This document shows, piece after piece, positions 7,057 to 21,719 of a stretch of 64,000 bases of DNA. A program made the translations under genes and the position numbers. The notes under the pieces are model-generated. The model was not told where the DNA came from and searched no databases. It worked only from the letters and a program-made list of their open reading frames with translations. The stretch's first letter is position 1; each line of letters opens with the position of its first letter. Origin of the DNA: Peribacillus frigoritolerans (GTDB taxonomy: Bacteria > Bacillota > Bacilli > Bacillales > DSM-1321); the NCBI RefSeq assembly GCF_040250305.1, contig NZ_CP158190.1:4992001-5056000 (forward strand), written 5' to 3'.

Positions 7057-7175
7057 TCCATCACCTCCACTTTTTTTTATCCTATGCCTCAGGGATGGAA
7101 AAATACTCCGTTTATTAACAAAATCTTCATATGGAATACACGTCCTATCAATAATACAACCCTATACTTAAGTAA

Positions 7176-7229
7176 GGCTGGATAGCACGCGTGGCTATCA
7201 TGGTATTTGGCGAAGGCGGGGCCAATACT
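7176..7229 (+). ncRNA. Two-hairpin structured RNA motif, copy A
   Basis: A 54-nt segment identical at 44 positions to 20128-20181. Hairpin 1 pairs GATAGC (7181-7186) with GCTATC (7194-7199) around ACGCGTG. Hairpin 2 pairs GTAT and TGGC (7203-7206, 7208-7211) with GCCAATAC (7221-7228), leaving one bulged base. Differences between the copies keep the pairing: A-T becomes G-C, and T-A becomes T-G, in hairpin 1. A -10-like TATACT (7163-7168) ends 7 nt before the first G, the same spacing as in copy B. No good -35 is visible. The 3' end is unknown; the inverted repeats at 7245-7435 may terminate it. The 7057-7441 stretch has no protein gene. I do not recognise the RNA class with confidence. Confidence 0.6.
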
Positions 7230-7244
7230 TTCTTTATACATATA

Positions 7245-7435
7245 AAAAAGGCGGCACATATTGTGCCTCTCGGACTGTAGACAAACTTGATGAAAGTCGA
7301 GTTTATCTACAGTTTTTTAAGGGTTTGTACAATTTGCCTTCAGGCATTCGCTTAACTCAAAAAGGTTTCGGAATGGTGTCATTCCGAAACCTTTTTGTCT
7401 GCAAACTGAGGCCTCACACAATGTGCCGTCTTTTT
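7245..7435. repeat. Nested inverted repeats (three hairpins) between RNA motif A and a DUF1292 gene
   Basis: An outer inverted repeat, AAAAAGGCGGCACATATTGTG at its left (7246-7265 region) against CACAATGTGCCGTCTTTTT at its right, encloses two further hairpins. Inner hairpin 1 (7274-7318) pairs ACTGTAGACAAACT with AGTTTATCTACAGT, followed by TTTTTT. Inner hairpin 2 (7359-7396) is a perfect 17-bp stem, AAAAAGGTTTCGGAATG with its complement, loop GTGT. The word GACTGTAGACAAA also begins elements near 10702 and, with one change, near 17812. The outer arms probably also form the terminator of the DUF1292 gene on the minus strand. Confidence 0.7.
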
Positions 7436-7441
7436 AACTTG

Positions 7442-7711
7442 TCATTCTTTCGCTTCAAATGCCGCTTCAAACGCCAATGATACCTTTTCGAACTCTTCAT
7501 CCGATTCGATATCGAGCAGTTCACCTTCGCCTTCGACCCTGAAAAAGAAAATATCGATATCTTCATCTGTATCCTCTTCAATATCTTCAAGCAAACCTAC
7601 TGCAACATATTCCGTTCCTTCTACATCCAATGAACCTAAAACCTCAACTTCATGGCCTTCATCACTGTCATCAGTAAGGGTGAAAATTTCACCTTCACGA
7701 ATTTTTCCCAT
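7442..7711 (-). CDS. DUF1292 family protein, 89 aa
   Basis: A small, very acidic cytoplasmic protein of 89 residues with the family layout: a short Gly/Glu N-terminus, the FTLTDDSDEGHEVEVLGSL beta segment, an acidic centre (EDIEEDTDEDIDIFFFRV) and the closing helix SDEEFEKVSLAFEAAF. DUF1292 proteins (B. subtilis YrzB type) are of unknown function. In B. subtilis yrzB sits with yrrK and yrzL; here it stands alone, so it is probably a paralogue. AGGAGAGG precedes the ATG. Confidence 0.8.
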   Translation of the reverse strand: MGKIREGEIFTLTDDSDEGHEVEVLGSLDVEGTEYVAVGLLEDIEEDTDEDIDIFFFRVEGEGELLDIESDEEFEKVSLAFEAAFEAKE

Positions 7712-8032
7712 ACTACCTCTCCTCTCATATCCATTAATAATGGAGTTGTTTCCATAGTATATCTACTATTCCATTTAGAAACAAATTTTTGCCCTGGAAA
7801 ATGTTAAATTTCATTCTTACATTATAAGAATCAATCAATAGATATTATGGAAGAAAAGTATTATCCCGAAAGCCATTCGTCATTTTTCATTATTTACCAA
7901 TACTTTCCCTTTATTAACATCATTTAAAAAATTATCTAAAAACGGTTATAAAAATGTAATTTAATTCCGAATAATCTTATATATACTAATATTAGCAAAT
8001 TGGATCTGGACTTAATGAAGGAGGAAGATTTC

Positions 8033-8419
8033 TTGGCTGTGAAGAGGGTCGATCACGTTGGCGTTGTTGTAAAAGATCTTGAAAAATCCATCGCCTTTTA
8101 TCAAGATGTGCTGGATTTAAAATTAAAAGCACGCATGACTCATACTAATGGGGTAATCGAACTGGCATTCCTGGGTTACGAAGAGTCGGACGAAACAGAA
8201 ATAGAATTGATTCAGGGATATAGCGACACACTGCCATCCGAAGCAACGATCCACCATTTTGCCATTACCGTGGATGATATCGAAGAAGAATATGCCCGGA
8301 TCAAAAGCTTGGATAACACCGAGCTGATTGATGAAGAGATCGTCACCCTTCCAAATGGTTATCGCTATTTCTACGTATATGGACCGGAAAAAGAGTGGAT
8401 TGAATTTTTCCAAAGGTAA
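8033..8419 (+). CDS. VOC (glyoxalase/bleomycin resistance) superfamily protein
   Basis: A 128-residue protein with two beta-alpha-beta modules. Candidate metal ligands are His in KRVDHVGVVVKDLEKSIAFY, Glu in IELAFLGY, His in TIHHFAITVDDIEEEY and Glu in PEKEWIEFFQR. The pattern resembles methylmalonyl-CoA epimerase or glyoxalase I-like small VOC proteins; the substrate is unknown. I chose the TTG at 8033 because AAGGAGG lies 8 nt upstream; the frame opens earlier at 8000 without a ribosome site. The upstream 320 bases (7712-8032) are AT-rich with nothing else recognisable. A terminator follows. Confidence 0.82.
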   Translation: MAVKRVDHVGVVVKDLEKSIAFYQDVLDLKLKARMTHTNGVIELAFLGYEESDETEIELIQGYSDTLPSEATIHHFAITVDDIEEEYARIKSLDNTELIDEEIVTLPNGYRYFYVYGPEKEWIEFFQR

Positions 8420-8430
8420 AAAGCATACTA

Positions 8431-8463
8431 AAAAAGCAGAGTCTTAAAGACTTCTGCTTTTTT
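8431..8463 (+). terminator. Intrinsic terminator of the VOC gene
   Basis: AAAAAGCAGAGTCTT, short loop, AAGACTTCTGCTTTTTT. Confidence 0.85.
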
Positions 8464-8584
8464 AACGCTTCTTCAACATTTTAGCAAAATTTACAGATAA
8501 AAAACCTTTCTTTACTTAACTGAAGTAATTTCTTAATATACTGCATTTATCCTAAAAGTAATAATATTTTTGGAGGTATGCATT

Positions 8585-10237
8585 TTGGGGAAAATGAGCA
8601 AAAAGGTAGCAGGAATTACGTTAGCGGGAGCTGTAGCCATTTCATCACTGGGTATTTCAACAATGAAGGAAGATGTTCAGGCAAAAAACAAGAAAAAAGA
8701 ACCAACAAACGTCATCATGATGGTGATGGATGGGACAAGCACAGGAGCCACAACCCTTTCAAGGTGGTATAAAGGCGGTAATCTAGCCATGGATGAAATG
8801 CTTTCAGGCGGTATGCGTACATATTCTGCTGAATCGGCCATTACAGACTCAGCTCCTGCAGCAACAGCCCTTGCGACAGGAAATAAATCCAATGATAAAT
8901 TTGTCGGTGTCCTGCCAGCCATCGTTAATTCTCCAGGGCTGGATCCGGTTAATCCGAAAAATGCCCATAAACCAGTCGCTAACGTTTTGGAGGGTGCGAA
9001 ACAAGCCGGAAAGGCTACTGGCATCATTTCTACATCTGAAATCCAGCATGCTACACCCGCAGGATTCTCCGCTCACGTGACACATCGAAGCAATTATGGT
9101 GATATTGCGGAACAGCAGGTTTATCAGGGGATTGACGTCGTTTTGGGAGGGGGCAAGGAATCCCTTTTACCAGGTAAAACAAAAAATGCAAGAATTGATG
9201 GAGAAAACCTTTTGGAAGTGCTCGATGAAGACAAATATGATTTTGTTGAAACCCGTGACGAGCTGTTAAACTCCAAATCGAATAAAATTTGGGGAAGCTT
9301 TGCACCAAGTGCCCTGGCATATGATTTAGATCGTAAAACAACAAAGCCAAGTGAACCCACTTTAGCTGAGATGACCAATAAAGCCCTTAAAACCTTGAAA
9401 AAAGATAAAGATGGCTTCTTCTTATTTGTCGAAGGAAGCAAGATTGACTGGGCTGCTCACGGAAACGACACGATTGGAATGATTAGTGATACTTTAGCTT
9501 TTGATGATGCCGTGAACGAAGCCCTTAAGTTTGCAAAAAATGACGGAAACACGATGGTCATTGCTGTAACGGACCACGGGAACAGCGGAATTACAATGGG
9601 TAACGTAAACACGAACTCCTCCTACCCGGAAACACCCGTATCAGCTTATATCGATCCATTAAAGAAAGCGAAGATGACTGTTGAAGGAGCTTTAAGTAAG
9701 TTAAAACCAGATCATTCCAATCTAAAAGAAGTTGCAGCACTGTATGGACTGGATGAACTGACTTCTGAAGAAACAGCAAAACTTACCTCTTCTAAAAACG
9801 TAGGTGCTGAAATGACAAAGCTGCTTGCTAACCGTGCCAACATTGGCTTTACAACTGGCGGTCATACTGGGGAAGACGTATTCCTGTATTCTTATGGCCC
9901 TTCAAAACCGACTGGATTAGTGGAGAATACAGACCTCGCTAAAAAAATGGCCGAATTCATGGGCTTTGATTTACAAAAATTATCGAACAAACTCTACATG
10001 AATGCTAAAGATTCCTTTGAGAAAAAAGGATATTCAACCCGTATTGATGTGACAGACCCGAATAACCCAATTTTCGTAGCGAAAAAGGGGCAGCAAAAAG
10101 TAGAGTTGCCTGCAAATAAGAATATCGTTATCAGCAAGACCCCTAAATCCACTAAACAAAAGAAAATTAATGCTATCACCGTTTACAACGGAAAAGACTT
10201 CTATATATCTGAACAAGCATTAAAGGCAGTCAAGTAA
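8585..10237 (+). CDS. Secreted alkaline phosphatase 1
   Basis: A 550-residue exported phosphomonoesterase. The N-terminus is a signal peptide (KK followed by a hydrophobic stretch ending near AISSLGIST). Family motifs are NVIMMVMDGTSTG (metal Asp), TDSAPAATALATG (nucleophile Ser), EGSKIDWAAHGND (metal ligands), VTDHGNSG and FTTGGHTGEDV. It is about 100 residues longer than the second phosphatase at 16175-17542, because of an insert in the middle and a C-terminal basic extension (about 490-550). The TTG at 8585 was chosen since GGAGG lies 8 nt before it. A possible PhoP site (TTTACA at 8490) lies upstream but without convincing 11-bp repeats. It probably releases phosphate outside the cell under phosphate starvation. 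Confidence 0.92.
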   Translation: MGKMSKKVAGITLAGAVAISSLGISTMKEDVQAKNKKKEPTNVIMMVMDGTSTGATTLSRWYKGGNLAMDEMLSGGMRTYSAESAITDSAPAATALATGNKSNDKFVGVLPAIVNSPGLDPVNPKNAHKPVANVLEGAKQAGKATGIISTSEIQHATPAGFSAHVTHRSNYGDIAEQQVYQGIDVVLGGGKESLLPGKTKNARIDGENLLEVLDEDKYDFVETRDELLNSKSNKIWGSFAPSALAYDLDRKTTKPSEPTLAEMTNKALKTLKKDKDGFFLFVEGSKIDWAAHGNDTIGMISDTLAFDDAVNEALKFAKNDGNTMVIAVTDHGNSGITMGNVNTNSSYPETPVSAYIDPLKKAKMTVEGALSKLKPDHSNLKEVAALYGLDELTSEETAKLTSSKNVGAEMTKLLANRANIGFTTGGHTGEDVFLYSYGPSKPTGLVENTDLAKKMAEFMGFDLQKLSNKLYMNAKDSFEKKGYSTRIDVTDPNNPIFVAKKGQQKVELPANKNIVISKTPKSTKQKKINAITVYNGKDFYISEQALKAVK

Positions 10238-10258
10238 GCAACACATCTTTATAATGAT

Positions 10259-10290
10259 GAAGGAGCCCTTGTTTTAACAAGGGCTCCTTC
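10259..10290 (+). terminator. Terminator of alkaline phosphatase 1
   Basis: A perfect 13-bp stem, GAAGGAGCCCTTG with its complement, loop TTTTAA. The T-run is weak. Confidence 0.8.
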
Positions 10291-10391
10291 CGTCTATCAA
10301 CTCTCATCCTCCCTTTTAAATTTCAGTTTGATAAAGATACAGCAGCTTATTTTAATAAAAATAAAAGTAAAGTTGTAAAATCATTACATCA

Positions 10392-10661
10392 ATTAGAAAA
10401 GTGGAGATTGATGATGCAAGTGATTTAGCTCAATTAAAACTAAATTAAATTCTTTATTACGAGCAGGAGGAGTACCAAGTACATATTCACATGAAGAGAT
10501 GAGAAAAAGAAGTAATTGAAAAATTAAAAGAAAACCTCAAAAAATTAGAACAAGAAATAAACCAAAATAAATATTCCTTTTCAAGTTTTGTACGTGAAAT
10601 CTTATATAGTACACGTGATAAATGGAATTTAGAAATAGAAGAAGAAATTAAAAATAATTAA
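10392..10661 (+). pseudogene. Remnants of two or three decayed genes
   Basis: Three short coding-like stretches in different frames. At 10392-10448 the translation IRKVEIDDASDLAQLKL looks like the first strand and helix of a GNAT acetyltransferase, then stops. At about 10450-10519 another frame reads LLRAGGVPSTYSHEEMRKRSN and stops. At 10503-10661 a third frame reads 52 codons including KLKENLKKLEQEI and FSSFVREILYSTRDKWNLEIEEEI before a stop, with no good start. A/T content is higher than in neighbouring genes. These look like leftovers of acquired DNA. The GNAT assignment rests on one motif. Confidence 0.45.
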
Positions 10662-10714
10662 GCATCTAAAAAGGTCCTTATCTAAGATTAGATAAGAACC
10701 TTCAGACTGTAGAC

Positions 10715-10822
10715 AAATTAATAAAAGTTCCAGTTGATTTCAGAAATCTGCTCACTTTCCGCGACTGTCTGCCAAGCCGCATCAAGCAAGCGCCTGCGGG
10801 GTCTCGGCTAGCCAGTTATTCG
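10715..10822 (-). repeat. Dispersed palindromic repeat, family 1 (minus orientation)
   Basis: Contains GGGGTCTCGGCTAGCCAG and TTATTCGG, found again near 17925 and, inverted, at 25308-25330. The other end carries TTCCAGTTGATTTCAGAAAT, whose complement recurs near 25180 and 25395. It is preceded by GACTGTAGACAAA (10702). It has no coding capacity and probably forms a folded single-strand structure. Confidence 0.7.
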
Positions 10823-10990
10823 GCCGTTCACGCAGTTTTTCGACCTATCCCGTACTTTATTCAACCTACACTGCACTTTATTCGACCTACATTGCACCTT
10901 ATTCGACCGTTCACGAATATTTTCGACCTACACCGCACTTTATTCGGTTCATGAATCTTTTCGGCCTTCTCCTCACTATTCGGACTCCAA
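10815..10990. repeat. Degenerate 20-21-bp tandem repeat array (TATTCGACCTACACTGCACT type)
   Basis: About eight or nine successive units beginning TTCGRCC, for example TTCGACCTACACCGCACTT and TTCAACCTACACTGCACTT, at 20-21-bp steps. It fills the gap between family-1 repeat and rpsN. On the minus strand the unit contains AGGTCGAATA, a core shared with the array at 41139-41325. Not coding. Confidence 0.8.
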
Positions 10991-11026
10991 ACCCCTTTTT
11001 TTATGAATGATTTAGTACTCCCCGCT

Positions 11027-11296
11027 TCACCAGCTTGACTTTTTGACACCCGGCAGTTGCCCTTTATGAGCAAGTTCCCTAAAAACGATACGTGACATGT
11101 TGAATTTGCGCATATATCCACGGGGCCTTCCCGTTACTCCACAACGATTGTGAACCCTTGTCGGCGAAGAGTCACGAGGGAGTTTGGCCAATGCGGCATA
11201 ATCCCCTTTCTCCTTCAATTCCTTTCTAAGTTTTGCATACTTTTCGACCATTGCCAGCTGTTTTTCAGCTTTAATCACCTTTGATTTTTTCGCCAT
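11027..11296 (-). CDS. rpsN: 30S ribosomal protein S14, zinc-independent (C-) paralogue
   Basis: An 89-residue S14 of the long form. The two CxxC pairs of the short zinc-binding S14 are absent; only one Cys remains, in [18 protein letters not shown]. This is the C- type (B. subtilis RpsNB/YhzA) that replaces zinc-containing S14 when zinc is scarce. The C-terminus [11 protein letters not shown] is typical. It is the last gene of a run zagA - rpmG - FAD protein - rpsN, all on the minus strand, and Zur-box-like sites precede the run. AAAGGAGAAT lies before the ATG. Confidence 0.93.
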
Positions 11297-11335
11297 TTAT
11301 ATTCTCCTTTTTTAAAAATCTTGATTTTATAAAAT

Positions 11336-12505
11336 CTATAAACTATTCACAATTCGTTCCGCTGCCTGTCTTGCTCCCGATATATTCCTCGAAATCGGTC
11401 CCATTTCAAGTTCAGCCAATGCACCCGTGACATATAAACCAGGTCCCCACTGCAACGACTGCGATACAATCGGATAACCACATTCCGCGCAGCGTAAATC
11501 ATGCGACCGGATGACTGGAGTCAGCCAATCCTTCCCTGGCATTGATGACTTAAAGCCGGTCGCTAAAAGGATCGTCCCTGTAAGTTGAATGACCTTTTCG
11601 TATTTATTCCTGAGACCAATATGCCCGTCCCTCCACACAGCGCTTATCACTTCTTCATCCATTACACGTAATAATCCCTGTTTAACCTGATTCATCAGCG
11701 CTTTATGTAAGTCAGGTGGTACGGAACCCTTATTACGTGCCTGAATAATGGTCTCGCGTCTTTTTTGATAGCTAGTTATAGCATGGAAAGGACGCTGTTT
11801 TTTCGGCCCCAACCAACCAGGATCACTGTCGAAATCATGAATCCTAAATGGATGCCGCTTTAGTAGCGTTACGTCATTGGGATAGATCTTACTCAGCTTC
11901 AAAGCGAGATGGACAGAAGATATGCCTCCCCCAATGATCGTGATTGGTCCTTTTAATTGTGTCAGCTCCGGAATATTTTCATCGAATATGTGGTAAATGG
12001 AACCCTCATGCTCTTGTTTTAATTGCTGTGCCCAATCAGGCCAATAAGGCTGTTCTCCAATACCAATTGAAATCACAAGCTTTTGTCCCACAAGCCGTCG
12101 CTTGTTTTGCAATTGGATTTCCCAGCCCTGTCCCGTTTTGCAGGCAGAGGTGACTTCCCCTTGCACCCATGCCTTCTTAATGGATAAATCATCAGCCAAG
12201 TGAACACAATGTTCATTGAAGGATTGTAGGGACGGCCGCTTATATTGGCCATAAAAGTTATTGTTCCAGTCTGCCTTTTCCACATATTTCTGCAGGCTGA
12301 AGGGATTCACATCCAGATGGTGTACGGATGGAGAACGTAAATAAGGCATTGAAATGATTTCCGTACAATGCTTCCATCTTGCCAATGGTTCTTCATTTCT
12401 ATCAACAATCGCCAGCTGGTCCACTGTCGTTTTTCCTGACTTAAGTAAAAATGCCGCCATCGTCATACCTTGAATTCCTCCGCCAATAATGATCCATTCC
12501 AACAT
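11336..12505 (-). CDS. FAD/NAD(P)-binding oxidoreductase of the zinc-starvation operon
   Basis: A 389-residue flavoprotein. The N-terminal dinucleotide motif is IIIGGGIQGM and a second, NAD(P)-type motif is ITIIGGGISSVHLALKL near the middle. The C-terminal ATGF segment (ILLATGFKSSMPG) and GLYVTGALAELEMGP are typical of FAD-dependent pyridine nucleotide oxidoreductases and N-hydroxylating monooxygenase relatives. Start set at 12505 because AAAGGAGGGAAGTTC precedes it. A Zur-box-like sequence lies 35 bases upstream, in the gap after rpmG, and rpsN(C-) follows 40 nt downstream. Substrate unknown; the context suggests a role under zinc limitation. Confidence 0.75.
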   Translation of the reverse strand: MLEWIIIGGGIQGMTMAAFLLKSGKTTVDQLAIVDRNEEPLARWKHCTEIISMPYLRSPSVHHLDVNPFSLQKYVEKADWNNNFYGQYKRPSLQSFNEHCVHLADDLSIKKAWVQGEVTSACKTGQGWEIQLQNKRRLVGQKLVISIGIGEQPYWPDWAQQLKQEHEGSIYHIFDENIPELTQLKGPITIIGGGISSVHLALKLSKIYPNDVTLLKRHPFRIHDFDSDPGWLGPKKQRPFHAITSYQKRRETIIQARNKGSVPPDLHKALMNQVKQGLLRVMDEEVISAVWRDGHIGLRNKYEKVIQLTGTILLATGFKSSMPGKDWLTPVIRSHDLRCAECGYPIVSQSLQWGPGLYVTGALAELEMGPISRNISGARQAAERIVNSL

Positions 12506-12539
12506 GAACTTCCCTCCTTTTATATCCATCCTCTTCAAT

Positions 12540-12560
12540 AAAACAAAATCATTACGATTT
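12540..12560. promoter_or_regulatory. Zur-box-like site upstream of the FAD oxidoreductase
   Basis: One strong half site ATTACGATTT with a weaker partner AAACAAAAT, spaced as in the known Bacillus Zur box (TCGTAATNATTACGA core). It lies between rpmG and the FAD gene, so the last two genes may also be repressed by Zur from their own promoter. Confidence 0.7.
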
Positions 12561-12571
12561 AAACTTCATAA

Positions 12572-12721
12572 TTACTTCGTTTCACGGTGAAGCGTGTGTT
12601 TCTTTAATCGTGGGCAGTACTTTTTCAATTCGATCCTGTCCGGATTATTCCGCTTGTTTTTCGTTGTGATATAATTGCGGTCCCCTGATTCTGTGCATGC
12701 TAACGTAATGTTTACTCTCAT
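12572..12721 (-). CDS. rpmG: 50S ribosomal protein L33, zinc-independent variant
   Basis: A 49-residue protein starting [20 protein letters not shown] and ending [10 protein letters not shown], unmistakably L33. In zinc-binding L33 the sequence carries two CxxC pairs; here the positions read CTES and CPRL, so each pair has lost one Cys and zinc cannot be held in the usual way. This is the C- form used when zinc is short. AGGAGGAAATAAAA precedes the ATG. It lies 22 nt downstream of the zagA stop in transcription order and is followed by a Zur-like site. Confidence 0.93.
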
Positions 12722-12743
12722 TTTTATTTCCTCCTAATGTTTT

Positions 12744-13937
12744 TTAATGAACGATTTCCGTAAAAGCAGGCAATCGATCTTCATATAAAGACCAATCCTG
12801 CTGTAACTCAATTTCCGTCAATAAGCATTGATCTAATTCATTTTCGATTTCCTGTTGATTCATTTGAATGCCAATCATCACCAGCTCCGTCATCCTGTCA
12901 CCGTATACTGCATTCCACCGTTCCAATAATTCAGGTGCCTCCTTTAAAATTTGGCCCTGTTCTTCCTCAGGGTAAGCTGCAATCCATTTACCGGCTGCTT
13001 GTAAAGTTAATGACGGTCCCGCCTGCGAAAGCAAGCCTGCCGTATCATTTCTCGATGCCAGCCAAAGGAAGCCCTTTGCCCTCACCACTTGTACGGGCCA
13101 ATTTTCTAACCATTCCATTAGCCTCTCGGGATGAAACGGTATTTCCCTTCTGTAAACGAAGGATGAAATCCCGTACTCCAGGGTCTCCGGGATATGCTCT
13201 TCATTCAATTCCTTTATCCAGCCCGCTCCTTGGCTTGCCTCTTCAAAATCAAATAAATGTGTATTCAATACATCCTTTAGCGGCACCTTGGAATGATTCG
13301 TTTCGATGATCCTCGCATCCGCATTCATTTTATGAAGAACCGCCTTTAATTCCTCAACGGCGTCAGCATCCATTAGATCGATTTTATTTAACAGGATGAC
13401 ATTGGCGAACTCTATCTGATCTATTAGTAGGTCGACCACTTCCCTGCCATCGGCAGCATCAGTTGCCTGCATCCTGTCAATAAGCGTTTCTCCGGAAGTG
13501 AAGTCTTGCCAAAAATTATACCCATCAACAACGGTAACCATCGTATCAAGCCGGCAATATTCCGATAAATCAATTCCCATGCTTTCATCAACATAGGAGA
13601 AGGTTTGGGCTACAGGTACCGGTTCGCTTATCCCAGTCGATTCAATTACGATGTAATCAATGTCCCCTTGTTTCGCCAATTTCTCCACTTCAATCATCAA
13701 ATCCTCACGAAGCGTACAGCAAATGCAGCCATTCTGCATTTCCACCAGTTTTTCATCCGTCCGGGTAAACCCTCCCTGTTTGACCAGCGAAGCATCAATA
13801 TTGATCTCACTCATATCATTAACAATGACGGCAACCTTCAGCTCATCCCGATTTTCAAGAATATGATTCAAGAGCGTCGTCTTTCCCGCACCAAGGTATC
13901 CACTCAATACCGTAACCGGAATTTTCTTCATCTCCAT
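12744..13937 (-). CDS. zagA: Zinc metallochaperone GTPase ZagA (YciC), COG0523 family
   Basis: A 397-residue G3E GTPase. The Walker A motif is [10 protein letters not shown], the metal motif is GCICC, the base-recognition motif is LLNKIDL, and a CobW C-terminal domain follows (about 290-390). B. subtilis ZagA (YciC) delivers zinc to folate enzyme FolE under zinc starvation and is the most strongly Zur-repressed gene there. It is the first gene of the minus-strand run with C- ribosomal proteins, and two Zur-box-like sites lie within 125 bases upstream. AAAGGAGTGG lies before the ATG at 13937. The operon context makes the zinc role convincing. Confidence 0.92.
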
Positions 13938-13975
13938 CCCTTACCACTCCTTTACCTGATTTCTTTACTGTGCGT

Positions 13976-13996
13976 AAATCAAAATCATTACGATTT
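13976..13996. promoter_or_regulatory. Zur-box-like site 1 upstream of zagA
   Basis: Half sites AAATC(AA)AAT and ATTACGATTT around one central C, the same form as at 12540. It lies 39 bases before the zagA start. The 13938-14348 stretch holds no convincing protein gene, only this site, a second site and AT-rich DNA. Confidence 0.75.
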
Positions 13997-14039
13997 AAAT
14001 ACTAAAACCATCTCCCACGCGAAAACACTCTTTAATAAT

Positions 14040-14060
14040 AAAACGTAATCATTACTATTT
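14040..14060. promoter_or_regulatory. Zur-box-like site 2 upstream of zagA
   Basis: ACGTAAT-C-ATTACTATTT: the core CGTAATCATTAC matches 12 of the palindromic bases of the Bacillus Zur box. Two boxes 64 bp apart (about six helical turns) resemble the two-site control known for B. subtilis yciC. Confidence 0.8.
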
Positions 14061-14348
14061 GCAAGTTTTTTTCAAAATTGCCTCCGAATACTTCTCCTGA
14101 ACCAATGTAATCACGATTGCTCCGACACACGGATAAATGAAAGGTGCCGTCATACAATTTAAAACAAAAAAATTAAATGGAAGCCCAATCACACATTACA
14201 ACATGTGTATGGAACCTCCATTGCAGGTTTATCATTTAATGTACTTCCATATTGACAAGCAGCTGATCATTAACACAACGCTTCATTATCCAATACATTT
14301 TTCTTTTTCTTTGTTGCAAATCGAGAAAAAACTTATTGGGTACTGAGC

Positions 14349-14519
14349 TTATTCCGCCATTTCCCACCCTGAAGATGTTACTGTCTTTTGTTCAAAAGTT
14401 TCAATTTCTCTCTGTTTCGCCAGTTTAGAAGCTTGTGACATGGACCACGTTAAATTCCCAAAGGCAATCACTGTCCCGATCGAGATAACTAACACCTTTT
14501 TACAAAGTATTTTCTTCAA
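14349..14519 (-). CDS. Small membrane or secreted protein, 56 aa
   Basis: Found by eye. AGGAGG lies 6 nt before a TTG start. The protein opens with a basic end and hydrophobic helix (MKKILCKKVLVISIGTVIAF), then a charged tail KLAKQREIETFEQKTVTSSG and stop. This is the shape of a signal-anchored or exported small protein; the family is unknown to me. It lies upstream of, and in the same direction as, the Zur operon, but 289 bases separate it from the nearest Zur-like site, so co-regulation is doubtful. Confidence 0.6.
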   Translation of the reverse strand: MKKILCKKVLVISIGTVIAFGNLTWSMSQASKLAKQREIETFEQKTVTSSGWEMAE

Positions 14520-14630
14520 TAGCTTCCTCCTGAGAATGTATTGGAATACTCTAAATATAAACCAACATTGTTAACCTAACATGTAGCTGCTGTAAATGTA
14601 CGAAATTATTTTTGTACATATGTAAACACA

Positions 14631-14661
14631 AAAAAGCTGAGTGCATACGCAGTCAGCTTTT
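14631..14661 (-). terminator. Terminator of the GIY-YIG gene
   Basis: AAAAAGCTGA ... TCAGCTTTT hairpin just after the minus-strand stop. Confidence 0.7.
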
Positions 14662-14673
14662 CATAGGTGTTTC

Positions 14674-15048
14674 TTATTTATAAAATACTTTGTCGACGTT
14701 GTATTTAGCATGAAGTTTATTGATCATGTACGTTTCATAGATTTCACGTTCCATAGCGTCTTCGACTATAAGAATGTCAATTTTCTTGACTTCATTACGA
14801 TGATCTTTAATCGGAGAAACATTATCCTCGAAATGCTTCTTGACCCTTGGTCTTAATTTACGAGCTTTACCGACAAAAATCAGCTCATCGTTTTCATTGT
14901 AAAACAAGATGATGCCGCCTTTATCACGGGGAATCAAATGAAAATCGATAAACCCGTAAATTTCAGGAATGACAGGCTCGTCTCCTTCAATAACTTGCTT
15001 TCTTTGTTTGATGCTTATATCCGCTGCAGGGATTTCAATTTTAATCAT
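14674..15048 (-). CDS. GIY-YIG-like nuclease domain protein
   Basis: A 124-residue protein with a GIY-YIG fold signature at residues about 44-75: GGIILFYNENDELIFVGKARKLRPRVKKHF. The usual GIY tripeptide reads GII and YIG reads FVG, while the Arg-containing helix and a later Glu (AMEREIYETYMINKLHAKYN) are kept. Such stand-alone GIY-YIG proteins are common in Bacillus; their DNA role is undefined. With the Tyr residues replaced, catalytic activity is uncertain. Followed by a terminator. Confidence 0.7.
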   Translation of the reverse strand: MIKIEIPAADISIKQRKQVIEGDEPVIPEIYGFIDFHLIPRDKGGIILFYNENDELIFVGKARKLRPRVKKHFEDNVSPIKDHRNEVKKIDILIVEDAMEREIYETYMINKLHAKYNVDKVFYK

Positions 15049-15203
15049 TACAATTCACGTCCTCTATTTGTATAAGGTGAAACTTTCAATCGGAATCATG
15101 GTTTCACGTCAAGCCAATCACTATAATCTTAAAGGTAAATGGTATCATAATTATGAATGAAAAGCCATGTATGCCTTGATTGGTTTAAGATGATTCTAAA
15201 TAT

Positions 15204-15236
15204 AAAGAAGAAGACTCGCTGGGAGCCTCCTTCTTT
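15204..15236 (-). terminator. Probable terminator of the YpzG-like gene
   Basis: AAAGAAG...CTTCTTT with an inner GAGTC/GGCTC pairing; moderate quality. Confidence 0.45.
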
Positions 15237-15250
15237 ATCGGAAATATCCG

Positions 15251-15403
15251 TTACCACCTGTGAGCCTTTGCATTGCTTCTTAGTATAATGTTTGTTTGCG
15301 ATTCTTGCGTATGGCCATTAACTTGAGATTTTGAACGCTTAGGTCTTGTCCAATTATGGTGAAACTTTTGAGAATGTGGATCTAATTGATCTTTATAGCT
15401 CAT
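15251..15403 (-). CDS. YpzG-like small protein, 50 aa
   Basis: Found by eye. The ATG at 15403 follows GAGGTGACACAGA. The product is basic and His-rich, with the central run KRSKSQVNGHTQESQTNIIL, which resembles the YpzG-like family of small Bacillus proteins of unknown function as I remember it. No membrane segment. It is probably expressed on its own, with a modest terminator downstream. The family name is tentative; that it is a gene is supported by the ribosome site and the conserved-looking core. Confidence 0.6.
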   Translation of the reverse strand: MSYKDQLDPHSQKFHHNWTRPKRSKSQVNGHTQESQTNIILRSNAKAHRW

Positions 15404-15506
15404 TCTGTGTCACCTCATCATTAGGATTTGGATATTCCGTTCAGTGATAGTAATCCCCATCACTTGTTCTAGTATTTTATTTTTCCAAGGCATTTATACA
15501 TATCCT

Positions 15507-16154
15507 TTAAAAAGCGAATTCAGCTGACTTGCCTTTTGCAAGGACTTCCCCTTCTTCATCCACCGCATCACTTGTCATTAGGGATATGCCCTTTATGTTT
15601 CCATCATTTAGAATGAAACCAATGTTTCCGCTTTTTGAACCGTTTCCTTCTATTTCACCAGTAAGTTCTTCCAAGTAGATCTCATCTTCCCATGTCAGAT
15701 GTTCTCCTCTGTCCGTTTCGAGGAAAGCAACTGGGGAAAACTTAATTTTTTTATCCGTATTGTTTTTGATTTCCACGTTCACTTTTACGATATCGAAATC
15801 TTCATCATGCGTATAGCCGTGGAAGAAATCAATCATGCTGTAATCCGGAGTGGCATGCATCACTTTCATTTCTTTGACTTTAACCTCGATCGGGCCAACA
15901 TCCAGCGTTTCATTCACTTTTTTATAGGCCTTCAAAGTTAATTCGCCTTTGGCATCGGAAACGTTCTGTCCGATCTGGTTCAAGTTTATATCATCAGGAA
16001 GCTGCGGATTCGGAACATAGACATCCTTTTTTTCCAGTGGTCGTGCAATTTCCTCTGTTTTTTCTTTAGCTGTCGTTTCTTCTTCGTAAGCTGGTTGGGT
16101 ATTAAGAGCACCAAATGCCGTTAATAACAGGGCACCAATCATCAGTCTGTTCAT
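15507..16154 (-). CDS. Exported DUF4352-like protein next to alkaline phosphatase
   Basis: A 215-residue secreted protein. The start at 16154 (MNRLMIGALLLTAFGALN) gives a clear signal peptide and is preceded by GGGAGGGATTCA. The mature part begins acidic (about 25-60) and continues with a beta-rich domain: LDVGPIEVKVKEMKVM, FDIVKVNVEIKNNTDKKI, FLETDRGEHLTWEDE, the pattern of DUF4352 (telokin-like) extracellular domains. It begins 20 bases after the stop codon of alkaline phosphatase 2 and is probably in one operon with it. Function unknown; a phosphate-starvation role is inferred from position. Confidence 0.7.
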   Translation of the reverse strand: MNRLMIGALLLTAFGALNTQPAYEEETTAKEKTEEIARPLEKKDVYVPNPQLPDDINLNQIGQNVSDAKGELTLKAYKKVNETLDVGPIEVKVKEMKVMHATPDYSMIDFFHGYTHDEDFDIVKVNVEIKNNTDKKIKFSPVAFLETDRGEHLTWEDEIYLEELTGEIEGNGSKSGNIGFILNDGNIKGISLMTSDAVDEEGEVLAKGKSAEFAF

Positions 16155-16174
16155 TGAATCCCTCCCTGAAGTCA

Positions 16175-17542
16175 TTATTTCTTTAATAGCTCAAAAATGA
16201 TTTTGGCTTGATCCGTGTTATCGACCTGCCCGGCAAAACGTTCTTTATATGGCCCGTATGCGTAGACTGGAACATCTTCACCCGTATGTCCCCCAGTAGT
16301 CCAGGCAGTATTGGTCCGGTTATCGAATATGGCTTCGATGGCATTATCGACATTCGTCACATTTTTTGATTTGGCAGCTTCAGTTACCGTTTTGATTTCA
16401 CCGTCAGTTAGCTTCACAACATTTTGGTTAATATATTGCTTTAACGTCTTTTCGACATCAGCGCCTTTGACGATGGCATCCGCCATGAAGTCAGGAGTGC
16501 GTTTGGCTGCCTTGATTGGCTCGCCGTACCAGTTATATATTCCTTTTGCTCCGATCGAGAATCCTCCTGTAGAGTGATCCGCAGTAGCCACCACTAAAGT
16601 ATGTTTGTCTTTCTTCGCAAATTCCATGGCCGCTTTGTATGCTTTTTCAAAGTCTTCCATTTCACTCATTGCACCTACGATATCATTATCATGTCCAGCC
16701 CAATCGACTTGGCTTCCCTCGACCATAAGGAAGAATCCATCTTTATCTTTATTCAAGCGCTGGATCGCCGAACTTGTCATGTCTGCCAAAGAAGGCGTTT
16801 CACTTGGGCGGTCAATCATTTTCGGGAGTCCTTCAGATGCGAATAAACCAAGGACCTGCTCATTTTTGTCCTTAAGCATTTGATTTTTATCAGTCACATA
16901 ACTGTAACCGTCTTTTTCAAAGGCTTTCGCCAAATTGACATCAGGCCGGACAAAATTGGACTTTCCACCGCCCAATAGGACGTCAATTTTATGTTTGCCT
17001 TTGATTAATTCGTTATAATAATCGTCTGCGATTGAATTCATGTTTTTCCGATTTTCATCATGGGCGCCAAAAGATGCAGGTGTAGCATGAGTGATTTCCG
17101 AAGTGGCAACCAATCCCGTCGCTTTTCCTTTTTCCTTTGCTGCTTCCAATACGGTTTTGACTTCCGATTTATCATTATCCACTGCAATGGCAGCGTTATA
17201 AGTCTTCACTCCGGCAGACATTGCCGTTGCAGCTGAAGCTGAATCCGTTATATTTTGTGCAGAGTCTTCTGGGTAAGTCATCTGCTGGCCAACCAAGTAT
17301 TTATCAAACTCTGTCCGTTCTGCCGCCTTCGTACCAGGATTATCTTTTAAATACCGGTAAGCGGAGGTATAGGAAACACCCATGCCGTCACCAATCAGGA
17401 AAATCACGTTCTTGATTTCCGGTTCTTTATTTGGGTTACCCTTTGCCGAAACACGATCCGCACCGGACCATGATAAACTTCCAAATGCCAATGCCGAAAC
17501 GAGTGTAATGGGTAAAACCTTTTTACTCCATGTGCGATTCAA
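16175..17542 (-). CDS. Secreted alkaline phosphatase 2 (PhoA/PhoB-like)
   Basis: A 455-residue exported alkaline phosphatase, the same size class as B. subtilis PhoA and PhoB (about 460). It has a signal peptide (KKVLPITLVSALAFGSLSW), the metal-binding NVIFLIGDGMG, nucleophile motif ITDSASAATAMSAG, MVEGSQVDWAGHDND, ATADHSTGGF and TTGGHTGEDVPVYAYGP. Start is TTG with GGAGG 8 nt upstream. A good PhoP-box-like array lies 75-113 bases upstream. It is followed directly by the DUF4352-like gene. It shares family motifs with the phosphatase at 8585 but is not a recent duplicate: the two differ in length and in most non-motif residues. Confidence 0.95.
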   Translation of the reverse strand: MNRTWSKKVLPITLVSALAFGSLSWSGADRVSAKGNPNKEPEIKNVIFLIGDGMGVSYTSAYRYLKDNPGTKAAERTEFDKYLVGQQMTYPEDSAQNITDSASAATAMSAGVKTYNAAIAVDNDKSEVKTVLEAAKEKGKATGLVATSEITHATPASFGAHDENRKNMNSIADDYYNELIKGKHKIDVLLGGGKSNFVRPDVNLAKAFEKDGYSYVTDKNQMLKDKNEQVLGLFASEGLPKMIDRPSETPSLADMTSSAIQRLNKDKDGFFLMVEGSQVDWAGHDNDIVGAMSEMEDFEKAYKAAMEFAKKDKHTLVVATADHSTGGFSIGAKGIYNWYGEPIKAAKRTPDFMADAIVKGADVEKTLKQYINQNVVKLTDGEIKTVTEAAKSKNVTNVDNAIEAIFDNRTNTAWTTGGHTGEDVPVYAYGPYKERFAGQVDNTDQAKIIFELLKK

Positions 17543-17616
17543 ATGAATGACCTCCCGTTAATCTTTTCTATTTAATTTAACTATAGGTGAAGAAAATGAA
17601 CTCAATGTCAAGGCTA

Positions 17617-17655
17617 TGTAAAAAAGCGACAGGATAATTGTTAAGACAAAGTAAA
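17617..17655 (-). promoter_or_regulatory. PhoP-box-like direct repeats upstream of alkaline phosphatase 2
   Basis: Read on the minus strand, TTTACT, TTAACA, CCTGTC and TTTACA occur at exact 11-bp steps. Three of the four fit the B. subtilis PhoP hexamer TT(A/C/T)A(C/T)A well. Four such hexamers at 5-bp spacing are the classic Pho box. Confidence 0.7.
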
Positions 17656-17807
17656 GACAGCATGTGGAATTGGTTATTCAGGGAAATCATCAGTAGCTGG
17701 GGTATATTACAGGCCATTCAACGTCTTCAAATCGGGTGATTGTCAGGAGTTTAAAGTGCTATTAATGGAGTAAAGAAATAAAGCATCCGAATAAGGATGC
17801 TTCAGAG

Positions 17808-17955
17808 TCAGACTGCAGACAAATTCGATACCTACAGTTTTTTCTTTGAGGAACGTTACATTTTTTTCGGAAATCCGCTTTTTTTCGCCGACACTGTCAA
17901 GCCTCCTGTCGCAAGCATCTAGCTGAGTCTCGGCTAGCCAGTTATTCGGCAGGAA
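17808..17955 (-). repeat. Dispersed palindromic repeat, family 1 (minus orientation)
   Basis: Begins AGACTGCAGACAAA and CTACAGTTTTTT, then ends GTCTCGGCTAGCCAGTTATT, as at 10715-10822. The middle is more degraded (GTCAAGCCTCCTGTCGCAAG). The 17543-18231 gap holds this repeat, the Pho box, a family-2 repeat and the purT terminator, and no protein gene. Confidence 0.7.
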
Positions 17956-18019
17956 AATCATGAAGTATAAACTATTCTTAAACCGTTCGGGATGAGGCCA
18001 GCCTACGTTTTACTTTAAA

Positions 18020-18160
18020 AACCATTCCAGTTGGTTGGAATGGAAGGTACGAGACTCCTGCGGGAAAAACGTGTCCAAGGGAGACCCCACAGGCGCAAAT
18101 GGCGCCGAGGAGGCTTCCGGACCGCACGCGGAAAGCGAGTACCTGGAGTGAAGATCATGT
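18020..18160 (+). repeat. Dispersed palindromic repeat, family 2 (plus orientation)
   Basis: Contains ACGAGACTCCTGCGGG, GAGACCCCACAGGCG, GCGCCGAGGAGGCT and CGCGGAAAGCGAG in order. The inverted copy lies at 63000-63125. The core GAGACCCCACAGGCG/CGCCGAGGAGGCT is also inside family 1. This resembles the short repeats scattered through Bacillaceae intergenic regions. Confidence 0.8.
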
Positions 18161-18194
18161 TCCATTTGATTTAAGAAATCCGCTCCCTTTGTCG

Positions 18195-18223
18195 AAAAAC
18201 TGAAGCGCTCCATTCAAGAGCGC
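18195..18223 (-). terminator. Terminator of purT
   Basis: GCGCTC, loop, GAGCGC followed on the minus strand by TTCAGTTTTT. Confidence 0.7.
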
Positions 18224-18231
18224 GTTTTTCA

Positions 18232-19392
18232 CTATTCTTTCTCTACAACTAAACATTCCAAAGCACGGGCCGCATTCACTCTCGCCACCTCGATTGAATC
18301 GGCAGATGACAGGGCGACTGCCACCCTTCTGCCTGCCTTTGTAACAGGTTTTCCGAAAAGACGCACTTGTGTATTAGGTAAAGCCAAAGCCTTTTCAACA
18401 CCAACTATAGAATATTCCGATAACTCTTCTTGAGCTTTTAATGGACGGCTGGCACCTGGGCTGATCAGCTTGATTTCTGGGATGGGGAATCCTAGAATCG
18501 CCCGAATATGAAGGGCAAACTCGGACAAATTCTGAGTCACTAATGTCACTAGCCCCGTATCATGCGGACGTGGGGAAACTTCACTGAAATAGACTTTATC
18601 CCCTGAGAGGAAAAGCTCAACCCCGAATAATCCGTACCCACCAAGTTCATCCGTAATGGCATGGGCAATTTTTTTCGCTTCCATTATTTGCGCGTCTGTC
18701 ATATTATGCGGCTGCCAGGATTCAATATAATCCCCGCCCTGCTGAATATGGCCGATGGGAGCACAAAACATGGTACCATTTACAGCCCGGACAGTAAGCA
18801 GCGTGATTTCCGAATCAAAACGGATAAATTCTTCAATGATCACCCGTCCATTTTGAACCCGGCCGCCTTCCATCGCGATTTTCCAGCAATCCTCCAGGTC
18901 ACCTTCCGTGCGGCACACACTTTGTCCTTTACCTGAAGAACTCATCAGCGGTTTGACGACATTAGGAAAGCCAACTTCCTTGGCAGCTTGAACAAATTCT
19001 TCATATGTATCGGCGAATTTGTAGGCTGCGGTCGGAATCTCCAGAGTTTCAGAAGCCAATCTCCTGATTCCTTCACGATCCATAGTCAATTTAGCCGCTC
19101 TTGCCGTCGGAATGACATGAAAGCCTTCCTCTTCCAACTTGACTAATTCGGATGTAGCGATGGCCTCGATTTCCGGCACAATCAAATCGGGTTGTTCTTT
19201 TTCTACAACTCCCCTTAGTTGTTCCGCATCCAGCATATCGATCACATAACTGCGATGAGCGACTTGCATGGCAGGGGCATGTTCATAGCGGTCTACAGCA
19301 ACGGTCTCGACACCAAGCCGCTGTGCTTCAAGTATGACCTCTTTCCCCAATTCACCTGAGCCCAATAATAAAATCTTTTTTGATTTATACAT
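18232..19392 (-). CDS. purT: Formate-dependent phosphoribosylglycinamide formyltransferase
   Basis: A 386-residue ATP-grasp enzyme. It forms formyl-GAR from GAR, formate and ATP in purine synthesis, bypassing the folate-dependent PurN step. Visible features are the N-terminal nucleotide fold [15 protein letters not shown], the region PEIEAIAT, the ATP-grasp signature [32 protein letters not shown], and the metal-binding [16 protein letters not shown]. Length fits the family (about 385-395). The ATG is preceded by AAGGAGGAGA. A PurR-type inverted repeat lies 50-73 bases upstream, so purine supply probably controls it. Confidence 0.96.
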
Positions 19393-19441
19393 TCAGTCTC
19401 TCCTCCTTAATTCCTCAAAATCATTATATACGAACTATAAA

Positions 19442-19465
19442 CGAATAAACATAAATATTTATTCG
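19442..19465. promoter_or_regulatory. PurR-box pair upstream of purT
   Basis: CGAATAAA and TTTATTCG form a perfect inverted repeat with an 8-base spacer. The CGAA and TTCG cores are separated by exactly 16 bases, the spacing of the two PurBoxes recognised by B. subtilis PurR. Confidence 0.7.
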
Positions 19466-19608
19466 TATTTTCAATCAATTCACTCAGAAAATATAAAATA
19501 AACATACATATTTTAAGCATTATAAATACCAACTTGACAAATTGGATTAATATGTTTTATGCTACTTTTATATAAGGAAAATATATAAGCTGACTAGTTC
19601 ACTGGAGG

Positions 19609-19638
19609 CTCTCTATTCAACAGGATAGGGGTTTTTTT
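19609..19638 (+). terminator. Possible leader terminator upstream of the 19668 gene
   Basis: CTCTCTAT, loop TCAACAGG, ATAGGGG then seven T. It lies between a likely promoter region and the gene start, 30 bases before its ATG, so it may act as an attenuator. It may instead end a short upstream transcript. Confidence 0.4.
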
Positions 19639-19667
19639 CGTTTTTATCAATGAGGGAGGATTACACT

Positions 19668-19994
19668 ATGCAAAAGGAATCGCTACGGATTATTTCCCCT
19701 ATCATGAATGAGAAGCAAAATGGGGGCTTAGAAAATATAGAGTACCTTAATCTGCCGGACAGAATATTTTTCCATTGGTGCCAGCAGCAATATCGACTGA
19801 ATAGAGGGATTTACAACACGATCGATCATTGGTTCTATGAGTATGGCATTGTCCATATCCTTTACCGCCGGATCAACCTTTTAGCCTTTTTGGAATTCGT
19901 TTCTACCCCTGAACAAGATACCGGAAAAACAAAGTTCATTAAATTCGGCAATGGTGGTCTAAAGCAAAAGTTGCAGGAATTCATTGCAGATTAA
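19668..19994 (+). CDS. Hypothetical protein, 108 aa
   Basis: GGGAGG lies 8 nt before the ATG chosen at 19668. The product is soluble and rich in aromatic residues, with the run FFHWCQQQYRLNRGIYNTIDHWFYEYGIVHILYR split over residues about 37-70 and a C-terminal amphipathic helix. No family recognised. It is preceded by a hairpin with a T-run, which may mean conditional expression. Divergent from purT. Confidence 0.65.
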   Translation: MQKESLRIISPIMNEKQNGGLENIEYLNLPDRIFFHWCQQQYRLNRGIYNTIDHWFYEYGIVHILYRRINLLAFLEFVSTPEQDTGKTKFIKFGNGGLKQKLQEFIAD

Positions 19995-20091
19995 CCTGAA
20001 TCTTATAAGACCCTTATCAGTAATATGCCCGTTCTCCTCCTACTGGTAAGGGACACTTATGCGAATGTCGAAATTTGCAATACGATTACTT

Positions 20092-20120
20092 TTGAAAATG
20101 TAAGCGCTTTCTAATATAAT
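20092..20120 (+). promoter_or_regulatory. Sigma-A promoter with overlapping cre site, driving structured RNA B
   Basis: TTGAAA (20092-20097), a 17-base spacer, then TATAAT (20115-20120). The spacer holds TGTAAGCGCTTTCT (20099-20112), which matches the CcpA cre consensus TGWNANCGNTNWCA at 13 of 14 positions. A CcpA complex here would block the promoter, so the RNA is probably repressed by rich carbon sources. Confidence 0.75.
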
Positions 20121-20127
20121 GAAATTA

Positions 20128-20340
20128 GGTTGGATGGCATGCGTGGCCGTCAAAGTATCTGGCGTAGGTGGGGCCAATACTAGCGCTAAGGAAGTTAATC
20201 TTCTTTACCGCAAAACTATTAGAATTCCTTTTGGCAGGGGCTGCAATATTACTGGGACATGGAGAATGTCCGTTAATTTTAGGCTAAAAAGCGAGTTAAT
20301 CATGCAATCGATAAGTAAAGCATAACTTTACTTATTTTTT
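20128..20340 (+). ncRNA. Structured small RNA, copy B of the two-hairpin motif (about 213 nt)
   Basis: Starts 8 bases after a perfect -10 box. The first 54 nt match 7176-7229 at 44 positions with pairing kept: GATGGC/GCCGTC in hairpin 1, and GTAT-TGGC/GCCAATAC with one bulged base in hairpin 2. Further 3', GGACAT/ATGTCC forms a third hairpin near 20262-20277. The transcript ends at an intrinsic terminator, AAGTAAAG, loop, CTTTACTT, ATTTTTT (20313-20340). GGGGCTGC (about 20237) could also pair with GCAGCAGCCC just past the terminator. A 68-codon frame over this region has no ribosome site and probably is not translated. The 19995-20434 gap is otherwise empty. Class not recognised with confidence. 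Confidence 0.65.
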
Positions 20341-20382
20341 GCAGCAGCCCTCATCGTTTCAAGTCTAATAGTTTATAAGACT

Positions 20383-20420
20383 AAAAAGCTCTACCCCATG
20401 GAAACGGAGTTGAGCTTTTT
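20383..20420 (-). terminator. Terminator of the LysM-M14 peptidase gene
   Basis: AAAAAGCTC ... GAGCTTTTT stem just past the minus-strand stop. Confidence 0.75.
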
Positions 20421-21628: not shown

Positions 21629-21719
21629 ACTGCACCTCCTCTTAACCAAATGTATGCTGACTCAATTTAATTATTGCCAACGCACCCTGACCTTTCTGGA
21701 CTTTATGATTATAGAAAAG

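Follow-up and report, generated by a model that had tools for sequence, protein, structure and literature searches.

Decoy RNAs of the CsrB/RsmZ type occur in several copies and present several hairpins with a repeated G-rich loop motif, ANGGA. In Bacillus subtilis, RosA (~225 nt) pairs with RoxS and FsrA through three G-rich regions, and SR1 is a CcpA-linked small RNA (sRNA) of Bacillus (PMC8464778). The Bacillaceae-1 RNA is listed as not cis-regulatory (PMC2864571). Here we describe two 54-nt segments, copies 1 and 2, that lie ~13 kb apart in a 64,000-nt stretch of Peribacillus frigoritolerans DNA (assembly GCF_040250305.1, contig NZ_CP158190.1, positions 4,992,001 to 5,056,000 of the forward strand; hereafter the window). 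They represent what is apparently a new, not yet described RNA family of the class Bacilli, in kind a small regulatory RNA.

Comparison with known RNAs set the segments apart. No match at gathering score was obtained in the whole window with the 4227 families of Rfam 15, and strict and permissive scans alike found nothing real at either copy. Seven homologous loci likewise gave no gathering-level match at the RNA; elsewhere in these loci a SAM riboswitch and a Bacillus-plasmid RNA were detected. Covariance-model searches of related genomes returned further homologues with covarying stems, and the same approach in Rfam returned no family. Bacillaceae-1 (RF01690), proposed as a candidate in the original prediction, is likewise a structured RNA of Bacillaceae but shares no sequence match with the segments: it gave no gathering-level match in the window and was absent from the E≤10 lists for positions 7100-7460 and 20050-20420. 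SR1 (RF02376) shares the link to CcpA, but its best score here was 16.9 bits against a gathering score of 45, reached partly via the cre region. RosA resembles the present RNA in being small, CcpA-controlled, G-rich and stand-alone; the RosA description cited above contains no such two-hairpin core, and it is by description only that the two are set apart. In the open-access literature, judged by titles and the beginnings of abstracts, no description of the family was found.

The two copies are identical at 44 of 54 positions, while the runner-up ungapped 54-nt match in the window reached 28/54 on the same strand and 30/54 on the other. Their flanks are unrelated, as originally stated, with 13/50 positions shared in the 50 nt upstream and 12/50 downstream, which is the level expected by chance. 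A genome-wide blastn search with copy 1 as query recovered copy 2 at E 7.9e-10. In both copies the GG start lies 7 nt past the -10 box, and neither copy stands directly before a gene on its own strand, the next gene-like open reading frames (ORFs; 7442-7711 and 20435-21649) both being on the minus strand. The interval originally given (7163-20340) holds two separate loci rather than one element. Two paired changes had been reported in the first hairpin. Both partners are replaced in the A-U to G-C change (model columns 9/21), which is thus truly double, whereas U-A to U-G (8/22) is one-sided and keeps the pair. Folding of the two single sequences was unremarkable (z -0.67 and -1.24) and gave weak support alone, so that comparison with homologues was needed, and this proved decisive.

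Three covariance models were used. Model R1 was built from 28 of 36 distinct 54-mers, leaving out seven close variants of retained rows and one locus (L053) in which a deletion breaks stem 2; model R2 was built from 80 of 119 stretches, and model R3 from alignment A4. This alignment comprises 84 loci hand-chosen for diversity (81 distinct rows), all of which matched R2. Within A4, 98.1% of cells are paired, and 12 of the 14 pairs show double changes, amounting to 170 double-change cells and 32 further pair types. None of 500 shuffles reached the covariation score, the number of cells or the number of types, and a single one reached the pair count (shuffled mean 9.0). When the pairing partners were slid by 1-3 columns, at most 66.6% of cells were paired, with at most 15 double-change cells. 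Having been fitted to the model, A4 leans towards it; a MAFFT alignment (A2) gave the same picture, with double changes at 6 of 14 pairs (19 cells). Alignment A3 was also fitted to the model, but its homologues were collected by a pattern imposing nothing on the 5′ arm of stem 1; here double changes affect 4 of the 6 stem-1 pairs, and the whole-structure pair count was reached by 13 of 500 shuffles. The top ten pairs by corrected mutual information were all modelled pairs. Judging from this covariation, the segments almost certainly belong to a real structured RNA family, in agreement with the original prediction of a two-hairpin RNA.

The loops are conserved in an interrupted manner. Invariant or near-invariant unpaired positions are G16, G18, A39, G40, G41, G43 and G44, and position 45 is either G (0.75) or A (0.21), while positions 13-15, 38 and 42 vary freely. 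The resulting loop consensus is ANNNGUG for the first hairpin and GNAGGNGGR for the second, with variable positions between invariant purines. By eye, copies from the high-GC family f53 have a longer stem 2 that in most cases has no bulge.

Homologues were counted at E≤0.01 with R1, R2 and R3, the tallies including the window's own genome. Because samples were searched under strict filters in the order, class and phylum, absence there sets a lower bound. At the DNA level, 31 of 61 related genomes matched copy 1 at E≤0.1, two of them by weak single hits (E 0.06 and 0.09); all matches but one of these two fell within the window's own genus. With R1, 32 of 36 genomes of the genus matched, with 106 copies summed and at most 8 per genome; four genomes had no match and one had only weak hits. 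In the order, R1 matched 77 of 397 genomes, representing 27 of 135 genera; R2 matched 27 of 398 genomes of the class, and R3 matched 3 of 398 genomes of the phylum, namely the window's own genome, another from the order and a third with a weak match (E 1.6e-4). A pattern scan of named genomes yielded at least 119 stretches, 80 of them with titles, and supplied the set used for promoter counts; among the matches listed were Peribacillus, Neobacillus, Domibacillus, Lederbergia, Mesobacillus, Metabacillus, Cytobacillus, Gottfriedia, Ectobacillus, Paenisporosarcina and others.

Rather than the two copies originally seen, R1 finds four in the genome, at 4999176 and 5012128 (the window copies), at 943082 (G000:C1) and, weakly, at 337445 (G000:C1). 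The last is apparently decayed; it has a cre-like site and lies ~150 nt before an ORF that by eye encodes a POT-type peptide transporter (L268, 1500-1800), and its equivalent is present in another genome (G023, L041). Copies also occur on plasmids: in blastn searches (E≤0.01), 54 plasmid records matched copy 2, of which 44 were from Priestia, and no phage record matched it. Among the carriers are species kept in laboratory culture, such as Priestia megaterium, in which one copy sits on a 10.6-kb plasmid of strain ATCC 14581; this plasmid also carries a Bacillus-plasmid RNA (RF01691; L228, 4648-4703). On two plasmids, genes of the Spo0E phosphatase family lie ~2 kb or less from RNA copies (L233, 3554-3757; L234, 991-1173), which may be chance.

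The regions upstream of the RNA fall into two types that the original prediction, though right about a conserved RNA, had missed along with the further copies. Promoters were counted in 116 listed copies, that is, 119 minus two with less than 90 nt upstream (L125, L176) and one duplicate (L183). Scoring was against a PhoP hexamer and a cre consensus: cre-type copies score at least 12 of 15 at -27 to -33, and PhoP-type copies have four TTHAYA-like hexamers at 11-bp spacing scoring at least 19 of 24, in registers shifted by multiples of 11. PhoP sites are direct repeats of 11 nt (PMC4415409) and TGTCGAA is the Spo0A core (PMC3485338). A PhoP-like array precedes 54 of the 116 copies, the registers differing by approximately multiples of 11, and 52 are cre-type, 50 of these scoring at least 13. 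Array scores of 21 or more were found in 39 of 54 PhoP-type copies versus 0.3% of shuffles, and none of the 52 cre-type copies reached 19. Of the 52 cre-type copies, 24 carry TGTCGAA, which in 22 lies at -61 to -63, and all 54 PhoP-type copies lack it; the shuffled mean is 0.25. Promoter type tracks the subtype of the core: a 5′ GNGGGG is present in 43/54 PhoP-type versus 0/52 cre-type copies, and A at offset 45 in 45/54 versus 1/52. Outside the order, PhoP-like arrays were found in family f53 (L245, 21; L239, 20; L248 and L251, 19; 0/300 shuffles each), and a cre site in L243 (15/15), as well as in L242 of another family of the order.

Both types are represented in the window (Table 1). Copy 1 is preceded by 11-bp-spaced, TTAACA-like direct repeats, putative PhoP sites whose score is the single best on both strands of the window, with two other places reaching 20. 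In copy 2 a putative cre site overlaps the promoter, its score of 14 being reached at five distinct places in the window, and a TGTCGAA core, a putative Spo0A site, lies upstream. The latter matches just 8 of 10 positions of the longer TTTGTCGAAA and gains its weight from its fixed place in homologues. In the same window, overlapping PhoP-like registers scoring 18-19 (17584-17677) precede a minus-strand ORF for alkaline phosphatase (16175-17542), where a Pho promoter would be expected. Scores of 18 and 19 are reached at 57 and 23 places in the window, respectively, and a second phosphatase ORF (8570-10237) scores 18 at best, so that the phosphatase arrays serve as a soft control only.

Table 1. 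Features of the two RNA loci, in window coordinates.
Feature	Position	Strand	Evidence
PhoP-box-like array of copy 1 (TTAACA-like hexamers at 7115, 7126, 7137, 7148)	7115-7153	+	21/24, 11-bp spacing
Copy 1 -10 box, TATACT, ending 7 nt upstream of the RNA start	7163-7168	+	sequence
RNA copy 1, two hairpins	7176-7229	+	80.4 bits with model R1; pair covariation
Copy 1, arms of stem 1	7181-7186/7194-7199	+	
Copy 1, arms of stem 2	7203-7211/7221-7228	+	
Copy 1, loops ACGCGTG and GAAGGCGGG		+	
U-rich stretch immediately 3′ of stem 2 in copy 1, perhaps a terminator tail	7229-7235	+	sequence
Spo0A-box core TGTCGAA upstream of copy 2	20066-20072	+	sequence; recurrence in homologues
-35 box TTGAAA of copy 2	20092-20097	+	sequence
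cre (CcpA) site of copy 2, between its -35 and -10 boxes	20098-20114	+	14/15 consensus positions
Copy 2 -10 box, TATAAT, ending 7 nt upstream of the RNA start	20115-20120	+	sequence
RNA copy 2, two hairpins	20128-20181	+	73.5 bits with model R1; covariation
Hairpin then T run, candidate terminator of a ~210-nt copy 2 transcript	20313-20341	+	sequence and fold; inferred

Genes downstream of the RNA lie on either strand. Where a clear downstream ORF of at least 80 aa was present (43/54 PhoP-type and 31/52 cre-type copies), it was on the same or the opposite strand in 16 and 27 PhoP-type and in 17 and 14 cre-type copies, respectively; with ORFs of at least 100 aa the counts were 17 and 25, and 19 and 18. 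The arrangement of a riboswitch or cis-acting leader, upstream of same-strand and functionally related genes, was not found with this crude ORF calling. U runs directly follow stem 2 in 17/54 PhoP-type and 3/52 cre-type copies versus ~7% of control windows, and terminator-like signals lie at +50 to +150 in 32/51 and 32/52, respectively. Since the downstream genes are on either strand, stand-alone, trans-acting RNAs probably make up most of the family and leaders a minority, and the original preference for a trans-acting RNA over a riboswitch is upheld. In many relatives, copy 1 is followed by a hairpin GGCACA..TGTGCC and at once by GTCTTTT; in the window, such a hairpin (7253-7267) is separated from GTGCCGTCTTTTT (7424-7434) by ~150 nt that include two further hairpins. 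Copy 2 is followed by a 7-codon frame, MQSISKA (20302-20325), and the corresponding place in one relative (L111) holds a 33-codon open frame that includes a hydrophobic stretch.

We propose that each of the two segments forms the 5′ end of a small regulatory RNA, usually stand-alone, of one starvation-linked family of the class Bacilli, whose two hairpins present loops that capture a partner; we put the probability of this explanation as a whole at roughly 0.5. Copy 1 would probably be turned on by PhoP in phosphate starvation, and copy 2 would probably be under CcpA repression while sugar is abundant, with some influence of Spo0A as stationary phase begins. Transcription would start at the GG, give an RNA with two folded hairpins and stop at an intrinsic terminator; in some PhoP-type copies stem 2 and its U run may themselves form this terminator. 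The loops, together with the G-rich 5′ end, would capture the partner, most likely an RNA-binding protein preferring Shine-Dalgarno-like AGGNGG sites, and starvation would then relieve or redirect the control of mRNAs by the captured protein.

Several observations weigh against this explanation. The PhoP-like threshold of 19 was reached by 5.6% of shuffles, and two cre-type copies (L188, L210) score only 12, a value reached by 11-26 of 100 shuffles. Ten of the 116 listed copies were scored as neither promoter type; some of these are cre-like by eye, such as L142 and L208, which fail the position or score limit. Many copies tested outside the order likewise have neither a cre site nor a PhoP-like array. 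TGTCGAA occurs 14 times on the two strands of the window, which makes a single occurrence weak alone. Copy 1 combines a PhoP-like promoter with a cre-type-like core, so the link between promoter and core subtype is not strict. The ORF caller was crude, and 11/54 and 21/52 copies fall outside the strand counts. A same-strand ORF (≥80 aa) begins within 400 nt in 11/43 PhoP-type and 2/31 cre-type copies, and shorter ORFs follow some others; since some copies thus precede genes, part of the family may be leader RNA. Terminator-like signals are also present in about a third of control windows. Finally, the two candidate partners tested, CsrA and RoxS, are not universal in genomes carrying the RNA.

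The strongest competitor, although it seems doubtful to us, is a base-pairing sRNA or sponge whose loops and G-rich 5′ end would bind C-rich sRNAs or mRNAs. The best precedent is RosA, a CcpA-controlled, stand-alone RNA whose G-rich regions titrate C-rich sRNAs (PMC8216469, PMC8464778), and RoxS is encoded in this genome (98.1 bits; a weaker neighbouring match of 59.1 bits is below cut-off). However, RoxS/RsaE was found in only 32 of 64 carrier genomes (E≤1e-3; the filters used miss some weak matches). In six tests of duplexes between three genome copies and the two RoxS-like hits, predicted by a method that ignores internal structure, 88 to 273 of 300 shuffles were at least as good; when two weak model hits, probably unrelated, were used instead, six such tests ranged from 25 to 194 of 300. 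Loop positions 38, 42 and 13-15 are also free to vary between the invariant bases, and this interruption argues against one contiguous pairing seed. Because the family combines two regulons with one core, several copies and interrupted invariant purines, it resembles decoy RNAs more than pairing sRNAs. We think that the loop partner is likelier to be a protein than an RNA, and hold the protein decoy, rather than base-pairing, as a tentative choice a little short of even odds. A more specific form, which we regard as speculative, is a class of nutrient-starvation decoys in Bacilli: a two-hairpin module with separate PhoP and CcpA/Spo0A subtypes and extra plasmid copies, passing phosphate and carbon status to one putative RNA-binding protein that recognizes AGGNGG loops.

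It is rather unlikely that the element is instead a 5′ untranslated module that stabilizes or regulates the downstream mRNA and has moved together with its promoter. Several copies do precede small ORFs or transporter genes with no obvious terminator (the weak fourth copy and several plasmid copies). Nevertheless, same-strand ORFs of at least 80 aa make up 16/43 and 17/31 of those counted, about chance, and the downstream ORFs seen vary between loci. A recurrent small protein lies behind some copies, but 24 of 25 homologous loci of this protein have no match to the RNA model, although one of the 24 (L291) shows by eye a degenerate RNA remnant. The protein (~40-55 aa, DF..DRFELNSYLTYL) follows copies L031, L044, L047, L097, L130, L144, L154, L171, L226 and L229, and gave no Pfam match (three tested) and no NCBIfam match (two tested). 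Several of its homologues elsewhere have a cre-like site upstream without an RNA match. Because it occurs elsewhere mostly with no RNA beside it, it was rejected as a fixed partner.

A CsrB/RsmZ-like decoy for CsrA itself is very improbable: the several copies per genome, G-rich loops and starvation-type promoters would suit it, but the loops differ from ANGGA, GGA is not a conserved loop element, and CsrA, with a match in only 46 of 64 carriers and none in 18 (E≤1e-3), is thereby excluded as a universal partner. Least credible, to the point of being negligible, is a short encoded peptide, for which an ATG open frame runs through the core of copy 2 (by eye, in this copy only), since one-base deletions of the stem-2 bulge (L026, L027, L028, L034) break this reading by shifting the frame while keeping the stem, and the stems covary.

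Taken together, the placing of one conserved core in two starvation regulons suggests that the responses are linked through a common post-transcriptional target. The likely inputs can be read from the promoters as phosphate (PhoP), carbon (CcpA) and entry into sporulation (Spo0A). If the proposed explanation is true, the two segments would belong to a widespread, multi-copy regulatory RNA family of Bacilli that is absent from Rfam 15.

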